Source of the DNA: a virus
Reading direction: 5' to 3' (one strand)
Virus record (IMG/VR): IMGVR_UViG_3300035703_000259
Span: 1-34,869 of that record
Length of the DNA stretch: 34,869 nucleotides
Numbering within the stretch: the stretch's first letter is position 1; every line of letters starts with the position of its first letter. The position numbers were made by a program, and so were the translations under genes. Below the pieces are notes generated by a model, which saw nothing but the letters and a program-made list of their open reading frames with translations, ran no database searches and was not told the origin of the DNA. Shown piece by piece: positions 8,433-34,869 of this stretch.

Positions 8433-8686
8433 TCTCCGAACCCTTCCAAATATAGTTCGATGGCTCGAATGCAGATGTCCACTGTGCACGCATCCAACAG
8501 CATCGCCTCCCACGCACACAGCAGCTTGCGATCAACCGGCTTCTGTTCGTGCTTGGCGATCATGTCGCAGAGAGCGCGGAAAGCGCCGCCAGCTTTATAC
8601 ATCAGCGTGACGTTATTGACGCCGTACTCGCTCCGCTTCGCAGCTTCGATCAGCACCCAGTCTTCTGGTGTTTGTGTGTCAGTCAT
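8429..8686 (-). CDS. Hypothetical protein, paralogue of the 90-aa protein at 9315 (85 aa)
   Basis: Both this and the 90-aa gene begin MTDT...DWVL-EAAKR. Both contain LCDMI-KHEQ-PVD-KLLCA in the middle and end E-FG(E/K). They are clearly diverged copies of one gene, separated by the Ala-rich gene. The shared pattern also occurs in other phages as small proteins of unknown function. The ATG overlaps the Ala-rich gene's stop and its stop overlaps the HNH-AP2 gene, both as ATGA. Confidence 0.8.
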   Translation of the reverse strand: MTDTQTPEDWVLIEAAKRSEYGVNNVTLMYKAGGAFRALCDMIAKHEQKPVDRKLLCAWEAMLLDACTVDICIRAIELYLEGFGE

Positions 8687-9318
8687 GCCACCACCCCATA
8701 ATCCGCAGGCCGCGCAGGGATTTTATCCGGTGATGCAAAGCCAAACTTCGGCAGGAAATAAAACGGCTTACCGTCGCGCTTCAGGATTTTACCCCCTTGG
8801 ATTTCAGACGACGCATACCCTGCCGCACCCCATGCCGCACCCCATGCCGCATCCCCTGCCGCATACCCTGCCGCAACCCATGCCGCATCCCCTGCCGCAT
8901 ACCCTGCCGCATCCCATGCCGCATCCCCTGCCGCAACCTTTCGCCAGCCAGCAACGTCTAGCGTGTCCATATACCACCAGAAGTCGAGCAACTTGTTCCA
9001 CTGGTCGCCGATGACCTTAGCAGGGTCGGTCAGCACAATGGCCGGTGCGCCGTCGATCTTGTCGTTCGTATTGCGCAACAGAACAGCATGGGCGCGGCTG
9101 ATATTCAGTAGCCTGGCCGTTGCTTTATCCGCTTCCGCCTGCTTGGTGTCTTTGAGCATCATCGCATCCCATCCACCAACAACGTGCAGCACTTGGCCTT
9201 GCGCGCACATACAGGACAGGTTGCCGTCTTCGTAGCTACCCATGTCGATCAATGAACCCTTATAAGGCTTGCCTTCGTCGGTGTTCCAACGGGCGATCAG
9301 TTCGTTAATGTTGTTCAT
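8683..9318 (-). CDS. Protein with Ala-rich AAGDAAW tandem repeats (211 aa)
   Basis: The ATG at 9318 overlaps the upstream stop as ATGA in the junction AAGAGGAATTTGGGAAATGA; a longer opening at 9414 is rejected. The N-terminal 125 residues look globular (INELIARWNTDEGKPYKGS..., DLxCMCAQG, LLNISRAHAVLLRNT). From about residue 145 a series of four-residue units (DAAW, DAAG, YAAG, VAAG, GAAW) is encoded by ten 12-base DNA repeats. The last 45 residues are basic and then aromatic. Similar AAW/AAR-repeat proteins occur in phages, but I know no function. Confidence 0.82.
   Translation of the reverse strand: MNNINELIARWNTDEGKPYKGSLIDMGSYEDGNLSCMCAQGQVLHVVGGWDAMMLKDTKQAEADKATARLLNISRAHAVLLRNTNDKIDGAPAIVLTDPAKVIGDQWNKLLDFWWYMDTLDVAGWRKVAAGDAAWDAAGYAAGDAAWVAAGYAAGDAAWGAAWGAAGYASSEIQGGKILKRDGKPFYFLPKFGFASPDKIPARPADYGVVA
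8821..8940. repeat. Tandem 12-base repeat, ten units
   Basis: Units beginning TGCCGCA recur every 12 bases at 8821, 8833, 8845, 8857, 8869, 8881, 8893, 8905, 8917 and 8929, with the variable remainder a/c/t, c/a, ccc/t. On the minus strand this encodes the (D/Y/V/G)AA(W/G) peptide repeat. Repeat number is likely to vary by slippage or recombination in frame, because each unit is four codons. Confidence 0.93.
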
Positions 9319-9587
9319 TTCCCAAATTCCTCTTCCCACAACGTGATGGCGAGGACGGCAAAGTCTGCCTTGTAGCCATCTGCAACCCACCTCCTGTGCG
9401 CCTCCCGCGCACACAGCAGCTTGGGATCAACCGGCGGCTGCTCATGCTTCAAGATCATGTCGCAAAGCGGGCTGTATATTTCATGGGTGATATAGGAATG
9501 CTGCAACTGGTTGAGGGTGTATATCCCCTCCCACCCACACCGCTTCGCGGCTTCGAGCAGCACCCAGTCTGGTGGTGTGTCGGTCAT
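9315..9587 (-). CDS. Hypothetical protein, paralogue of the 85-aa protein at 8429 (90 aa)
   Basis: It begins MTDTPPDWVLLEAAKRCG, with a Cys-containing middle LCDMILKHEQPPVDPKLLCA, and ends EEEFGK. It is the better-preserved copy of a pair with the 85-aa protein. The ATG overlaps the stop of the 36-aa membrane protein. The terminal codons GAAGAGGAATTTGGG serve as ribosome site for the next gene. Function is unknown. Confidence 0.8.
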   Translation of the reverse strand: MTDTPPDWVLLEAAKRCGWEGIYTLNQLQHSYITHEIYSPLCDMILKHEQPPVDPKLLCAREAHRRWVADGYKADFAVLAITLWEEEFGK

Positions 9588-11794: not shown

Positions 11795-12447
11795 CGGTCA
11801 TAAGTCCCTTCGAGCAGTTTGATGAATGTGCTGGGCTGAAGCAGGAAGTCGAAGTTTGCTCGCCAGCCTCTGTCGTTGTCTCCGCACAGGAATTTCGATT
11901 TGTCGATGGCTGACAGCGCCTTGGACCAGTCTGCCGCTTCTGGATATTCCTTAATCCGCGCTTGCACCTGTCGTCTACGTGCTTCCGTTACCTTGGAGAC
12001 TTTCGGTAGGCCACGGTCAGCAGCCAGATCATTCCAAGCGTCAACGACATCGTGGACAGAGAGGTCATCGTCAGATGACATATCCTTTGGTGTGTTTTGA
12101 TGTATCTCTGATGTATTGGGTGACACTGTGTCAGGGGTGGGGTGACTGTCTGTCAGGGGTGGGGTGACACTGTGTCGGGGGTGACAATCTGTCAGGGGTG
12201 ATAAAATCCAGTATTTATTGCCCTTACCAGTTACCTCATCGCGGCGAACAAAACCCGCCTCCTCCAGCTCTCTGATGATGCGCTGGATTGACCTCGCAGC
12301 CATGCTTGCCTTGATAGCCAACCGATTGATTGATGGCCAGCAAAGACCTTCGTCGTTCGCCCAATCAGCAAGCGCCAATAGGACCAGTTTCTGGGTGGAT
12401 GATAGGTCTGTGCGTTCCCAGACGGCGGTCATGATCCGTATGCTCAT
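11791..12447 (-). CDS. Replication initiator-like protein with winged helix (218 aa)
   Basis: Residues 1-85 form a helix_turn_helix_36-type winged helix (LSSTQKLVLLALADWANDEG, WPSINRLAIKASMAARSI, IIRELEEAGFVRRDE). This domain is typical of phage replication proteins of the lambda O kind. A low-complexity linker (about 86-120, Pro/Thr/Ser/His rich) is encoded by an iteron array. The C-terminal region (VHDVVDAWNDLAADRGLP, then ALSAIDKSKFLCG and GWRANFDFLLQ) resembles the C-terminal part found in such initiators. No helicase gene follows, so it would have to recruit a host helicase. The architecture strongly suggests origin binding; direct evidence is lacking. Confidence 0.85.
   Translation of the reverse strand: MSIRIMTAVWERTDLSSTQKLVLLALADWANDEGLCWPSINRLAIKASMAARSIQRIIRELEEAGFVRRDEVTGKGNKYWILSPLTDCHPRHSVTPPLTDSHPTPDTVSPNTSEIHQNTPKDMSSDDDLSVHDVVDAWNDLAADRGLPKVSKVTEARRRQVQARIKEYPEAADWSKALSAIDKSKFLCGDNDRGWRANFDFLLQPSTFIKLLEGTYDR
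11793..11811 (-). repeat. Gene-junction sequence related to 10939-10957
   Basis: This is the second copy of the EGTYDR/ATGACCGAT junction, at the end of the initiator gene and the start of the methyltransferase gene. The initiator and the methyltransferase are unrelated proteins with the same last six residues, which points to junction reuse and not to common ancestry of the genes. Confidence 0.8.
12118..12200. repeat. Four dyad-symmetric iterons: candidate replication origin
   Basis: Four copies of GGGTGAC-n5-GTC(A/G)GGG lie at TGAC positions 12121, 12143, 12165 and 12182 (steps 22, 22, 17). Copy 1 contains the perfect palindrome TGACAC-T-GTGTCA. They sit inside the linker of the initiator gene and are flanked by AT-richer DNA on both sides (about 12076-12117 and 12201-12220). 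This is the same plan as the lambda origin in gene O. The function is inferred. Confidence 0.75.
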
Positions 12448-12578: not shown

Positions 12579-12938
12579 TCAATCGTCGTTCAAAGCGCCA
12601 TATTTGACGCTGGATGTCCGCCGCAGGCCCAAGTGATGATTGACTGTCGTCCTATCAATTTGCAGGTGAGCCGCGATCCTGTCTGCGTTCCAGCGCATTT
12701 CGTGGTGCAGCCTTTGGATAAACTCCCGGCGCGCCGCAACTAGGTGCTTTACCCGTGACCGGCTGAAAATGTCCTCAATTGACACACCGTGCCGCTGGGT
12801 GACTGTGCGCTTTATGTCATCCATCTTGAAGCTGGTGTAGACCGGCACTTTAACGGCGACTGGAGCCATCAGCATTGCCCGCCGAGGTGGCCGTGGAAGC
12901 GGTGTCGCTCGCTGGCGGTTGGTGGTAATTCTAATCAT
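12579..12938 (-). CDS. DnaA domain IV-like DNA-binding protein (119 aa)
   Basis: After a basic, proline-rich N-terminus (residues 1-35), residues 40-105 look like the C-terminal DNA-binding domain of DnaA. It shows VTQRHGVSIEDIFSRSRVKH, then LVAARREFIQRLHHEMRW with the Arg-containing helix. ADRIAAHLQIDRTTVNHHL corresponds to the DnaA signature helix (normally ...DHTTV-H). The AAA+ ATPase domain of DnaA is absent. It could bind DnaA boxes or phage sites to assist or compete in initiation (inference). It lies just upstream of the initiator gene, with GAAGGGAC eight bases before its ATG. Confidence 0.85.
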   Translation of the reverse strand: MIRITTNRQRATPLPRPPRRAMLMAPVAVKVPVYTSFKMDDIKRTVTQRHGVSIEDIFSRSRVKHLVAARREFIQRLHHEMRWNADRIAAHLQIDRTTVNHHLGLRRTSSVKYGALNDD

Positions 12939-15641: not shown

Positions 15642-15951
15642 TGACGCCCCCGTCTCAGAACGCTTTCGATTGGCGGCACTGGAATGGACGGAACTCGACA
15701 ACGCCGCAAGGATGTTGGAAGAAGGCAAGACCACATATCTTGCACAACAAAAGACGCGGCTTGGCGATATGCCTGAAGCCAAATCAGAACGTATCGTTAA
15801 ATCGTCGAAGGAATGGTCGGATTACATCAAGGCGATGGTCCGGTCTAAAACAGCAGCGAACAAAGCTCGCATTGAAATGGACTATCTCAAAATGCGTATG
15901 CAGGAATGGATCGCTGCAGAAGCAAACAACCGTGTAGAAAGGAAGATGTAA
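15628..15951 (+). CDS. Conserved hypothetical phage protein (107 aa)
   Basis: The product is helical and charged: [40 protein letters not shown], then [19 protein letters not shown] and [17 protein letters not shown] recognise it only as a type of coiled-coil protein common in phage recombination operons. The stop overlaps the next ATG as TAATG and its start lies within the end of the HNH gene with AAGAGGAAATT upstream. Function is unknown. Confidence 0.78.
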
Positions 15952-16187
15952 TGACAAATATGGTAGCAGCCGCCGAACTTCGGCTTTTGATTGAGCGCAT
16001 CGAGCGCCTTGAAGAGGAAAAGAAAGGCATTTCGGACGACATCCGCGATGTGTATTCCGAAGCCAAGGTACGGGGTTATGACGCCAAGATTATGCGTCAG
16101 ATCATCAAGCTGCGGGCGATGGAAGCACATGATCGTGCTGAATTTGAAGCAATTCTGGACACCTATATCGCAGCATTGGGAATGTAA
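15951..16187 (+). CDS. GapR/DUF2312-family nucleoid protein (78 aa)
   Basis: The sequence reads [20 protein letters not shown], then [20 protein letters not shown] and [20 protein letters not shown], ending [10 protein letters not shown]. This closely follows the alphaproteobacterial GapR/DUF2312 family. Host GapR dimers or tetramers bind AT-rich, overtwisted DNA and help replication and topoisomerase action. This short phage copy keeps the long helix and the [10 protein letters not shown] basic helix. It may take part in phage replication or interfere with host chromosome control (inference). It is coupled to its neighbours by TAATG. Confidence 0.9.
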
Positions 16188-27770: not shown

Positions 27771-29870
27771 TTAACCTTTCACTATAATTTTGGTAGCGGC
27801 GACAGCTGTGCCAGCAAATACGGATGGAACACCGGGAGAAAGCCCTAGAGTTCCGCTGGGCTGCACGTAGTACGATTGGCCCGGTGTCAGACCGGACTGC
27901 GCATCATCCACTGCTCCGACAATCTGAATAGTCGCTGATTGGCCGTTGGTATAATTGCCATCGCTGAAGCCAATAAAGTTTTCAGATGTTAGGTTAGTTA
28001 CCGGGACGATAAACGTAAGAGCAGTGCCAAAACTAGAGTTGCCTACATCTGAATAAGCAATTACAAACTTCTGCGCGTTAGTATCGTAAACGGTTGCGGT
28101 AAAGGCGGTGCTTGCACTTTCAAAAACAGATGCAGTGCCAAAGCTGATGCTCGTACCCGAAACAGTTCCGACGATAGCGGTTCCAAAACTTGAGTTGCCT
28201 ACATCAGCATAGGAGATAACGACTTTCTGCGTAACTGTATCGTAGGCAACGGAGATATTAGATGAGCTTGCACTTTCAAACACTACCGGAGTGCCGAAGC
28301 TTATGCTCGTGCCCGACACAGTGCCGACAACGGCGGTTCCGTAGCTGGAGTTGCCTGCGTCCGTGTACGCGATGACAATCCGCTGCGCATTGGCGTCGTA
28401 AGTAGTTGCAGCGTTTGAGGTGTAACCAGTTTCAAACACAACCTCCGTACCATAACTGATAACCGTACCAGTAAGCGTGCCGACAATGGCGGTGCCTTGA
28501 TCTGCATTGCCTCCGTCCCTGTAAGCTACTACGACACGTTGCTGTGCAGTATGGTAAGCTGTAGAGATGCTAAAAGTTCTACCGCTGTTAAATGTAACCG
28601 GAGAGCCAAAGCTTATGGTTGTGCCCGACACGGTAGCCGCAATGGACCTCCCGATGTCGACGTTATCCGTATCTCGACAAGCTATAAACACAACATTTTG
28701 CGCAGCATGATACGTTGCGGAAATATCCGCTGTATTAAAACTTTGAAATACAACAGCCGTACCAAAACTGATGCTCGTGCCCGACACAGTGCCAACAATG
28801 GCAGTGCCAAAACTAGAGTTGCCCGCGTCTGAATAAGCAATTACAATACGCTGCGCGGTAGTATTGTACGTAGCCGAAATATAATTTGAAGTAGCACTTT
28901 CAAACACAACTGGAGTGCCAAAACTGATGCTAGTTCCGCTAACTGTCCCAACAACGGCAGTTCCGTAGTTGGAATTGCCGCCGTCTCGATACGCGATTAC
29001 TACCTTCTGTGATACTGTGTCATAGGCAGCGGAGATATAATTTGAACTAGCACTGTCAAACACAGTCGGCGATCCTGCACCTCCTGCAATTGTTGCGATA
29101 CTGACCGTGCCATCCACATTAATAATTACCGTTGAACCATCACTCAACGATCCAGATGCAATCGCGGTATATTTCGACGCGCTTATAGCGGCCCAGCTTG
29201 CGTTCGTTCCGTCAGTGGTGACGAACTTGCCAGCATTTCCCGCCTGATTGGGGAGTGCGCTTGAAAATGCCGTAGCGTTAACAAACTGCGTCGTCGCAAC
29301 CTGATCGGTGCTGGTCCCTGTGGCTGCAGTCGGCGCGGTTGGTGTTCCAGTGAATGCAGGGGAAACGGTTGGTGCAAAATTGGCAGCGACAAATGCAGTC
29401 GTGGCGATCTGCGTTGTGTTAGTCCCGCCAGCCGCAGTCGGTGCAGTCGGTGTGCCAGTCAGCGCAGGAGATGCGAGAGGCGCATAGGTGGACGCCGCAA
29501 CAGATGTCGAGAGCTTAGCATCAAGCTGCGTCTGAACGGCGGATGTAACGCCATCGAGATAGCTGATCTCAGTTGCTGAAACCGTACCGATGCTGGTCGT
29601 CGAAGGAAGTGTGACCGTCCCGGTGAACGTAGGGCCACTGAGAGGAGCAACAACGCCACCAGAAAGTGTGCCAGTGACATTGATCGTACCAGCGACGGTG
29701 AGCGTTTTGCCAACACCGACATTCAGACCAACACTGGTCCCACTTCCAGCCGCAGCGAATACGGCATCAACAAGGTCGAAGTCCGTATTGAGCTTCGTTC
29801 CCCAAGTGTCAGCGGATGCGCCTACTTCTGGTTTTGTAAGACCGAGATTGGTGGTCGTTGTATCAGCCAT
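27771..29870 (-). CDS. Tail fibre with seven 52-residue repeats (699 aa)
   Basis: The N-terminus [20 protein letters not shown] with [18 protein letters not shown] is the usual virion-attachment end of such fibres. Residues 75-200 are shaft repeats ([20 protein letters not shown], ...TAFVAANF). Residues 267-624 are seven near-identical 52-residue units (VVFESA-SNYIS--YD-, [25 protein letters not shown]). A short C-terminal domain ([20 protein letters not shown], ...[17 protein letters not shown]) ends the protein. Seven tandem beta-rich units suggest a seven-bladed propeller, a likely receptor-binding module (inference). Confidence 0.9.
27999..29072 (-). repeat. Seven tandem 156-base units in the tail fibre gene
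   Basis: The units begin at about residues 267, 319, 371, 423, 475, 527 and 579. The last is shortened and runs into a different sequence (about residue 624). Several units share long stretches of identical DNA (for example AAGCTTATGCTCGTGCCCGA-type blocks on the plus strand), so recombination between units is plausible. Unit 3 and unit 4 are the most diverged. Confidence 0.9.
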
Positions 29871-33447: not shown

Positions 33448-33684
33448 TTAATTCCTTGATGCAAGCACTCCTGCGTCAAGGGTCGCCTGTAGGCGGGCTT
33501 TCAAACGCTCTAATCCTTTTAGCGTGTGAAACAGGTCTTGGCGCTGCCGATCATCGCCCAATGCGGTCGTGCGCCATTCAGTGTAAATGTCAGCCTCAAC
33601 TTGCTCCATAGCAGCGATGAAAGTTTCATCTTCCAAGATGCGCTTGGCATGATTGGCCTGAGTGATAACTTGACCTTTATCCAT
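33448..33684 (-). CDS. Small helical protein before scaffold gene (78 aa)
   Basis: The product MDKGQVITQANHAKRILEDE, then FIAAMEQVEADIYTEWRTTA and LFHTLKGLERLKARLQATLD, is a helical hairpin. It resembles small proteins located just upstream of scaffold genes in other phages. Its ATG overlaps the stop of the repeat protein as TGATG. Function is unknown. Confidence 0.78.
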   Translation of the reverse strand: MDKGQVITQANHAKRILEDETFIAAMEQVEADIYTEWRTTALGDDRQRQDLFHTLKGLERLKARLQATLDAGVLASRN

Positions 33685-34869
33685 CAGATTAACGGCTGAT
33701 AGATTGGCGTTGCGGCAGCAGCGGGCGCAGAAGAGCCAGCAGATGCACCGGAAACAAGGCGGTTATACTCAGGCCGGAAGAATGTCGCCTCCGGGCCAAA
33801 GCCGTAACGCTCGTAATCGAGAATGTTAGGCTGTGCGCGGTAATCCATGCCAGTGCCAAATCCTGTGCCAGCGCCGAATGGTGAGACATAAGGAGTTGTG
33901 GAGCCAGCGCCACCTCTACTACCACCACCACCAACAGCACTGCCAAGCAACGATGCGACAGCCAGATAATCAGTCAGACCCATGTTTGACGTAATCCGGT
34001 CAAGAAGGCTCTCGTTTTTAGGTGCCATCGCAACGTCTTTAAGTATTTCAGCTACTGGAGCGCCAGCAACATCAAGTGGGCCAATATCTGGAACGGGTGA
34101 TGGCGTTACCGTCGTAGCAGATGGCGCTGTAACCAGAATGTCGCTTGGGAACGATGCAGGTGGTGCGACTGACGGCGTATCTGGCTGCGTAGTCGGCTGT
34201 GTCTGCGCGTTGACTAAAATGTCACTTGGGAACGCAATCGGTGGCGTGACAGACGGCGCTTCAGGCTGTGGGATAGCCTCAGGCTGTGCAGTAACTAAAA
34301 TGTCACTTGGGAATGCAATTGGTGTGGCAACTTGTGGCGCATCAGGCTGTGAAGTCGGTGGCGTCTGAGCGTTTACCAAAATACTGTCTAAGAACGACAA
34401 AGGAGGCTCAGGCACAGTAGCTTCAGGAACTGCCACCGGCTGCGGCTGCGCGCTAACCAAAATATTTTCTGGGAACGTCACAGGAGCCGCGACAGGAGGC
34501 TCCTGATATGCGGGTTCAGGCTGCATCGGAGCGTTAACAAGAATTTCAGTTGGCACAGAAACTGGAGGAGCAGGTGTCGGAGCGTCCACCGGCTCTGTTG
34601 GCTGTGGCTGCGCATTAACCAGAATGTTTTCCAACAATGAAGTCGGCGGCGATACAGCAGGAACCTCATAGTTCGGTGGTGGCGCGGGCTGCGCATTCAC
34701 TAGAATGTTTTCTGGGAACGTCACAGGAGCCGCGACAGGAGGGGTTTCTGGCTGCGGCACTGGTTGCGGCTGCGCATTCACTAGAATGTTTTCCGGGAAT
34801 GAAACTGGCGTTGTTATAATAGGCGTCTCATAAATTGGCTGTGGCTGTGGCTGTGGCTGTGGCTGTGCT
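33684..34869 (-). CDS. Repeat-containing minor virion protein, C-terminal part (cut by window end)
   Basis: This part holds eight complete 27-residue repeats (consensus NAQPQP-PQP-APSVAPPI-F with PSDILV or PENILV). A C-terminal domain follows (ESLLDRITSNMGLTDYLAVA, SLLGSAVGGGGSRG, NILDYERYGFGPEATFFRPE). The glycine-rich part and the YERYGFGPEATFFRPEYNRL ending look conserved and folded. The gene joins the part at 1-1015 in frame. The Pro-rich repeats should be extended, like a flexible rod. I do not recognise a named family. Confidence 0.87.
   Translation of the reverse strand, partial: AQPQPQPQPQPIYETPIITTPVSFPENILVNAQPQPVPQPETPPVAAPVTFPENILVNAQPAPPPNYEVPAVSPPTSLLENILVNAQPQPTEPVDAPTPAPPVSVPTEILVNAPMQPEPAYQEPPVAAPVTFPENILVSAQPQPVAVPEATVPEPPLSFLDSILVNAQTPPTSQPDAPQVATPIAFPSDILVTAQPEAIPQPEAPSVTPPIAFPSDILVNAQTQPTTQPDTPSVAPPASFPSDILVTAPSATTVTPSPVPDIGPLDVAGAPVAEILKDVAMAPKNESLLDRITSNMGLTDYLAVASLLGSAVGGGGSRGGAGSTTPYVSPFGAGTGFGTGMDYRAQPNILDYERYGFGPEATFFRPEYNRLVSGASAGSSAPAAAATPIYQPLI
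34131..34869 (-). repeat. Tandem 81-base repeat array (27-codon units)
   Basis: Eight exact-length units lie at 34131-34778, and one more upstream runs into the QPQP tract at the window end. All units are 81 bases; sequence differs between units but the ILV end and NAQ start are fixed. The last three units (PSDILV type) are closest to each other, and two ENILV units share VAAPVTF, showing recent duplication. Confidence 0.92.
34586..34869. repeat. Right copy of the terminal overlap (long form)
   Basis: This is the 284-base counterpart of bases 1-203, with one additional 27-codon repeat. Removing the duplicated end gives a genome of about 34,666 bases (long form) or 34,585 bases (short form). 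Both forms give a reading frame that passes uninterrupted through the join. Confidence 0.93.

Follow-up and report, generated by a model that had tools for sequence, protein, structure and literature searches.

The replication initiator gene of the window (the whole stretch of DNA analysed, a linear IMG/VR virus contig of 34,869 bp) carries an array of dyad repeats inside its own coding sequence, and across related genes the iteron core changes in step with the gene's own recognition helix. Very probably the repeats are binding sites of the encoded winged helix and, together with an adjoining AT-rich stretch, would form a replication origin laid out as in phage lambda. The first-pass annotation had proposed a lambda-like origin within the initiator gene, and this reading is supported by the kept spacing of the repeats as well as by the co-variation between core and helix, which make the array a candidate origin. 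The features of the gene are listed in Table 1.

Table 1. The initiator gene of the window, its predicted domains and the repeats within it
Feature	Position	Strand	Basis or remarks
Initiator gene, 218 aa	11791..12447	-	Winged helix at the N-terminus, disordered linker, helical C-terminal domain
Winged-helix DNA-binding domain, residues 1-82	12202..12447	-	AlphaFold, pLDDT mostly > 90
Recognition helix, residues 51-64	12256..12297	-	Predicted structure and covariation with iteron bases
Iteron 1 (coding order), GGGTGACAATCTGTCAGGG	12179..12197	+	Motif search
Iteron 2, GGGTGACACTGTGTCGGGG, imperfect arm	12162..12180	+	Motif search
Iteron 3, GGGTGACTGTCTGTCAGGG	12140..12158	+	Motif search
Iteron 4, GGGTGACACTGTGTCAGGG	12118..12136	+	Motif search
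AT-rich stretch 3' of the iterons, AATACATCAGAGATACATCAAAACACACC...	12073..12117	-	33% G+C; probable unwinding element
C-terminal helical domain, residues 131-213	11809..12057	-	PHROG profiles and mosaic comparisons

The four dyad iterons that had been noticed in the linker-coding part of the gene are indeed present (12118-12197, steps of 22, 22 and 17 bases). A search of the whole record for GGGTGAC-n5-GTC(A/G)GGG returned four matches and no more, all of them in the array; dinucleotide shuffles predict none. Three of the copies are exact, while the one at 12162-12180 has GTCGGGG; on the coding strand its arm reads CGA (Arg) at a place where the perfect sequence would bring a TGA stop into frame. 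The description of the iterons as palindromic holds for the inner arms, which are dyad-symmetric (TGACA-n3-TGTCA), but not for the outer GGG/GGG flanks, so that an iteron reads CCC-TGACA-n3-TGTCA-CCC on the coding strand. Throughout the family the flanks of the dyads are C-rich and almost free of T on the coding strand, whatever the core, and since they are the same on both sides of the core every iteron is directional; stop avoidance, the proline linker or DNA shape may be the reason for this bias. The DNA next to the iterons had also been called AT-richer, and the G+C content is 33% over the 45 nt past the last iteron compared to 58% across the iterons themselves. The G+C skew of the window tracks gene direction and is uninformative.

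In the Pfam search the N-terminus of the initiator matched HTH_36 (PF13730) with 50.7 bits (cutoff 25), and residues 4-217 gave a full-length PHROG match to phrog_345, 'replication initiation O-like' (E 9.5e-40). The AlphaFold model of the protein (pLDDT 81) places helices at residues 3-10, 17-29, 40-47 and 51-64 and strands at 67-72 and 76-81 of the winged-helix domain, and linker residues 86-126 fall below a pLDDT of 50 between two confident domains. The C-terminal domain matched the profiles phrog_10469 (DnaD-like helicase loader, 7.3e-23) and phrog_19658 (4.9e-23); it is probably a helicase-recruiting module, for which the DnaD-like match is suggestive only. On the coding strand the winged helix is thus followed by the iterons, the AT-rich stretch and the C-terminal domain, in this order. 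Elsewhere in the window, proteins with internal repeats are encoded at 8683-9414 (-; Ala/Gly/Trp-rich, AAGDAAW), 33684-34781 (-; proline-rich, 'FPENILVNAQP') and 27771-29870 (-; repeat units in a putative tail-fibre protein), and a phage GapR-like DNA-binding protein (15906-16187, +; PF10073, 109 bits) adjoins SSB and ERF genes and is present in 30 of the relative loci compared.

Repeats within a coding sequence could in principle be the by-product of a repetitive Pro/Thr/His-rich linker peptide without any role for the DNA, and the linker is proline-rich in all types, with iteron flanks that are C-rich and T-poor on the coding strand. The signal is lost, however, on synonymous shuffling: with the protein preserved, 300 shuffles of the window gene gave a mean array score of 37.7 (sd 2.0, maximum 44), whereas the actual array scores 51. 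The spacings of 17/22/22 place the copies in all three frames, and a repeated peptide therefore cannot account for them. Across the family only 19% of the short steps are multiples of three, and approximately 90% of the weighted genes have their repeats spread over two or three frames. The handling of stop codons points in the same direction. Among 61 distinct arrays of the TGA type, all 23 arms that lie in the TGA-stop frame are near misses (CGA 12, TGT 9, TGC 1, AGA 1), compared to 188 perfect arms out of 219 in the other frames; an open gene cannot hold TGA, and these near-miss triplets show how binding site and coding are reconciled. Given in addition that the iteron cores follow the recognition helix, the peptide-repeat reading was ruled out by the synonymous shuffles and the reading frames, and we assign it practically no credence.

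A first scan covered 56 viral loci. The expectation that the spacing should be kept while the linker changes was borne out by about 30 distinct close relatives, in which the 17/22/22 steps and the number of iterons are maintained and both linker residues and cores vary. Each distinct close relative whose linker is complete retains the 34 codons and, in the same position, the four iterons, with TGACA, TGAAC, GTGCAT or GTGCAG as cores, and none of the close relatives retains the linker peptide without the DNA repeats. G+C content after the last iteron is 20-40% in all of them, and a conserved AATACATCAnAnAYACATCAATTAA-like sequence is located there. More distant relatives with iterons at the same place include phages of Sphingopyxis, Microcystis, Pseudomonas, Vibrio and Escherichia.

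Further scans brought the collection to 278 distinct genes, 277 of which were scored with an iteron finder that is blind to the protein and rates dyad repeats against 20 synonymous shuffles per gene. Linker iterons that beat all 20 shuffles were found in 241 of the 277 distinct related genes (87%), compared to 6% of the control ORFs taken from these contigs (9 of 154). The steps peak at 17 and 22 bp across the family, the first site has its median at nt 253, and in 116 of the 241 genes, where about 27 would be expected, the gene's 40-mer of lowest G+C follows the last iteron at a distance of 5-80 nt. As positive controls, the finder returned the annotated iterons of lambda O, four sites inside the annotated origin of P22, and three of the four sites plus one false site for phi80 gp15. 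The linker iterons of the window initiator conform to a regularity found here, which is not a published criterion for HTH_36-type O-like initiators.

For the analysis of recognition, half-site positions were numbered outward from the dyad centre. The strongest association linked Arg56 to C at position 3, which was observed in 36 of 38 genes with Arg56 (the other two lack C3) and in none of the 84 without it (95% redundancy; p 6e-29), and which persisted among genes of <60% identity (12/14 vs 0/21). Of 32 independent pairs, 30 were concordant, none opposite and two unchanged, and in background-matched pairs the C3 state differed in 1% of cases if the R56 state was the same and in 96% if it was different. 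Similarly, Asp51 was accompanied by A4 in all 29 cases and Glu51 by C4 in 28 of 33, the remaining five having A4; the independent pairs for residue 51 and position 4 were distributed 17/0/4. Arg52 is almost invariant across the family, as is G5 in the half-sites. With background removed, the 13-residue window most closely tied to the iteron was 49-61 (partial r 0.30; median window 0.10), which coincides with the predicted recognition helix 51-64. The largest mutual information of any single column belonged to residue 17, outside this helix, and iteron type also correlates with background lineage (partial r 0.25). Covariation and the predicted structure together identify residue 51 (Ala in the window protein) and Arg56 as the putative specificity positions.

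The prediction on iterons and code was written down before a test set was assembled. A scan of a genome collection yielded only one relative (Amaricoccus), and the test set was therefore drawn from phage records and from prophages in bacterial genomes, giving 46 genes with <85% identity to the discovery set. Iterons were present in 39 of these. Under the pre-set register filters, 14 test genes could be scored for the R56 rule and four for the E51 rule, and every one of them conformed, with no scorable case for D51; 25 of the 39 iteron genes were unscorable for the code owing to an even-centred array or the lack of a G at position 5. Three test genes (L490, L494 and L498) exhibited 'GAGxST' helices, repeats in 15-bp steps and GTCAGA-type half-sites, off the 17/22 geometry, and this subfamily appears to follow another scheme.

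Recombination has acted on the same segment. In two pairs of loci (L009/L041 and L016/L042) identity is 90-100% in the first 120 nt of the gene and 95-100% immediately after the iterons, yet drops to 43-78% between these segments, a stretch that covers recognition helix, wing and iterons. As judged from these alignments, near-identical genes have exchanged a cassette of approximately 200 bp that holds recognition helix and iterons together. Two further relatives, L015 and L019, retain the C-terminal domain of the window protein (DNA identity 85-100% for L015). In these genes (L015:4764-5483 and L019:4767-5483) a different winged-helix-like domain makes up the whole N-terminal half and the iterons are missing; CCATTTG/CAAATGG-type repeats lie where they would be and are perhaps a second type of in-gene origin. 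Cassette swaps and mosaics taken together indicate that DNA-binding domain and sites move as a unit, independently of the C-terminal module.

Co-variation, cassette exchange and structure thus support the proposed binding of the initiator's own winged helix to the iterons of its own gene. By this mechanism a dimer of the N-terminal domain would sit on each dyad with its recognition helix in the major groove, where Arg56 would read the G opposite C3, residue 51 position 4, and Arg52 the near-invariant G5. Four closely arrayed dimers may bend or strain the DNA such that the AT-rich stretch opens, a step modelled on lambda (PMC7466680), and the C-terminal domain would bring in the replicative helicase or its loader, as suggested by lambda (PMC7466680) and the DnaD-like profiles. 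Origin activity would accordingly be expected at the array. The contiguity of protein and sites would allow the specificity cassette of recognition helix, wing and iterons, approximately 200 bp in size, to be exchanged whole.

Co-variation demonstrates recognition, not the consequence of binding, and the repeats could instead serve as an operator at which the encoded protein blocks its own transcription for autoregulation and copy control, with the origin elsewhere. Dyad sites within a gene can block transcription, and autoregulation through dyad sites is found in plasmid initiators, for example RepE. The sites of the window are located about 250 nt into the gene, however, away from a promoter position, and about four sites at fixed spacing with an AT-rich side correspond to the layout of the in-gene origins of lambda, P22 and phi80. 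We thus consider a purely regulatory array unlikely, although operator and origin roles may coexist.

Directly upstream of the initiator, ORF 12579-12938 (-) encodes a stand-alone DnaA domain IV-like protein, whose Bac_DnaA_C match of 31.2 bits is just below the cutoff of 31.5. An initiator-type DNA-binding domain of this kind, or alternatively a host factor, might be the main reader of the sites. This gene has homologues in only six close-relative loci (L005, L006, L007, L015, L019 and L057), whereas iterons are present in nearly all, no DnaA box that could serve as a partner site was found in the whole record, and the iteron bases vary with the recognition helix of the initiator itself. A different principal reader is therefore very improbable, even more so than the operator, and recognition by the initiator itself remains the preferred reading.

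Textbooks describe in-gene origins for a few lambdoid phages. Like lambda O, P22 gene 18 and phi80 gene 15, the window gene has about four dyad iterons after the N-terminal domain and an AT-rich tract 3' of them, and lambda O binds its iterons as a dimer (PMC7466680). The steps (17/22/22 in the window, 20/24/23 in lambda) are different and the half-sites unrelated, and no P-type loader gene was recognised in the annotated parts of the window, in which it differs from the lambda group. The relation to lambda had been placed at the level of the winged helix only, in a phage with a putative alphaproteobacterial host. This agrees with the different Pfam families (PF13730 vs PF04492) but not with the match of both proteins to phrog_345. 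Phage_rep_O (PF04492) scored 123, 129 and 88 bits for lambda, P22 and phi80, respectively, and gave no match at E <= 1 for the window initiator, and direct profile comparison with lambda O returned nothing significant. Since its N-terminal domain is not Phage_rep_O, the window initiator belongs to a parallel O-like family.

Among solved structures, sequence search returned nothing below E 0.2, while the best PDB fold matches (including 4pql, 4pt7 and 5kbj; E 2.8e-3 to 1e-2, target-normalised TM about 0.46) were weak and generic for winged helices. They are annotated as N-terminal domains of plasmid initiator or Rep proteins and as a Rep-DNA complex, and we take these closest initiator/Rep folds to be staphylococcal RepA. 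No RepA_N domain was among the Pfam matches at E <= 1 for the window initiator. In the parts of the literature on RepA_N initiators of plasmids and of the PLE phage satellite that we consulted, these proteins likewise place an N-terminal DNA-binding domain on semi-palindromic iterons, and for the PLE satellites this domain is described as co-varying with the origin and being swapped (PMC8263062). Unlike the window array, the PLE origin is described there as intergenic, and unlike for the window family, those parts report no residue-to-base code. A match to the RP-C profile (19.3 bits) was below the Pfam cutoff of 24.4. The repABC plasmids of Alphaproteobacteria likewise carry their origin within repC, the gene of their initiator, and an AT-rich region there is essential, but repC is without iterons, unlike the window gene (PMC3155836). 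Searches of the open-access literature, which does not include the classic lambdoid type-specificity work of the 1970s-80s, turned up no HTH_36 initiator described as carrying iterons and no comparable code. Lambda is a precedent for the layout, whereas its wide occurrence and the residue-level recognition code appear to be new.

We lean, by a modest margin of confidence, towards the broader view that HTH_36 initiators constitute a large family in which helix and iterons are an exchangeable cassette under the code R56-C3, D51-A4, E51-C4 and R52-G5, diversified by selection from rival phages, satellites or origin-directed nucleases. If this is true, every such gene would be a self-documenting pair of protein and target, and specificity would be predictable from metagenomes alone. 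The in-gene layout is a rule across the broader family, including phages or prophages of Sphingopyxis, Microcystis, Pseudomonas and Amaricoccus as well as many uncultured contigs, and sequence alone therefore locates the likely origin to within about 100 bp in hundreds of uncultured phages. As protein and target reside in one gene, metagenomes yield natural protein-DNA pairs in bulk, and it is unusual for a winged helix to yield a predictive recognition code without any experiment. The cassette exchanges imply that one recombination event may suffice to give an initiator a new origin specificity, a point of relevance to phage compatibility, superinfection and defences that target origins.
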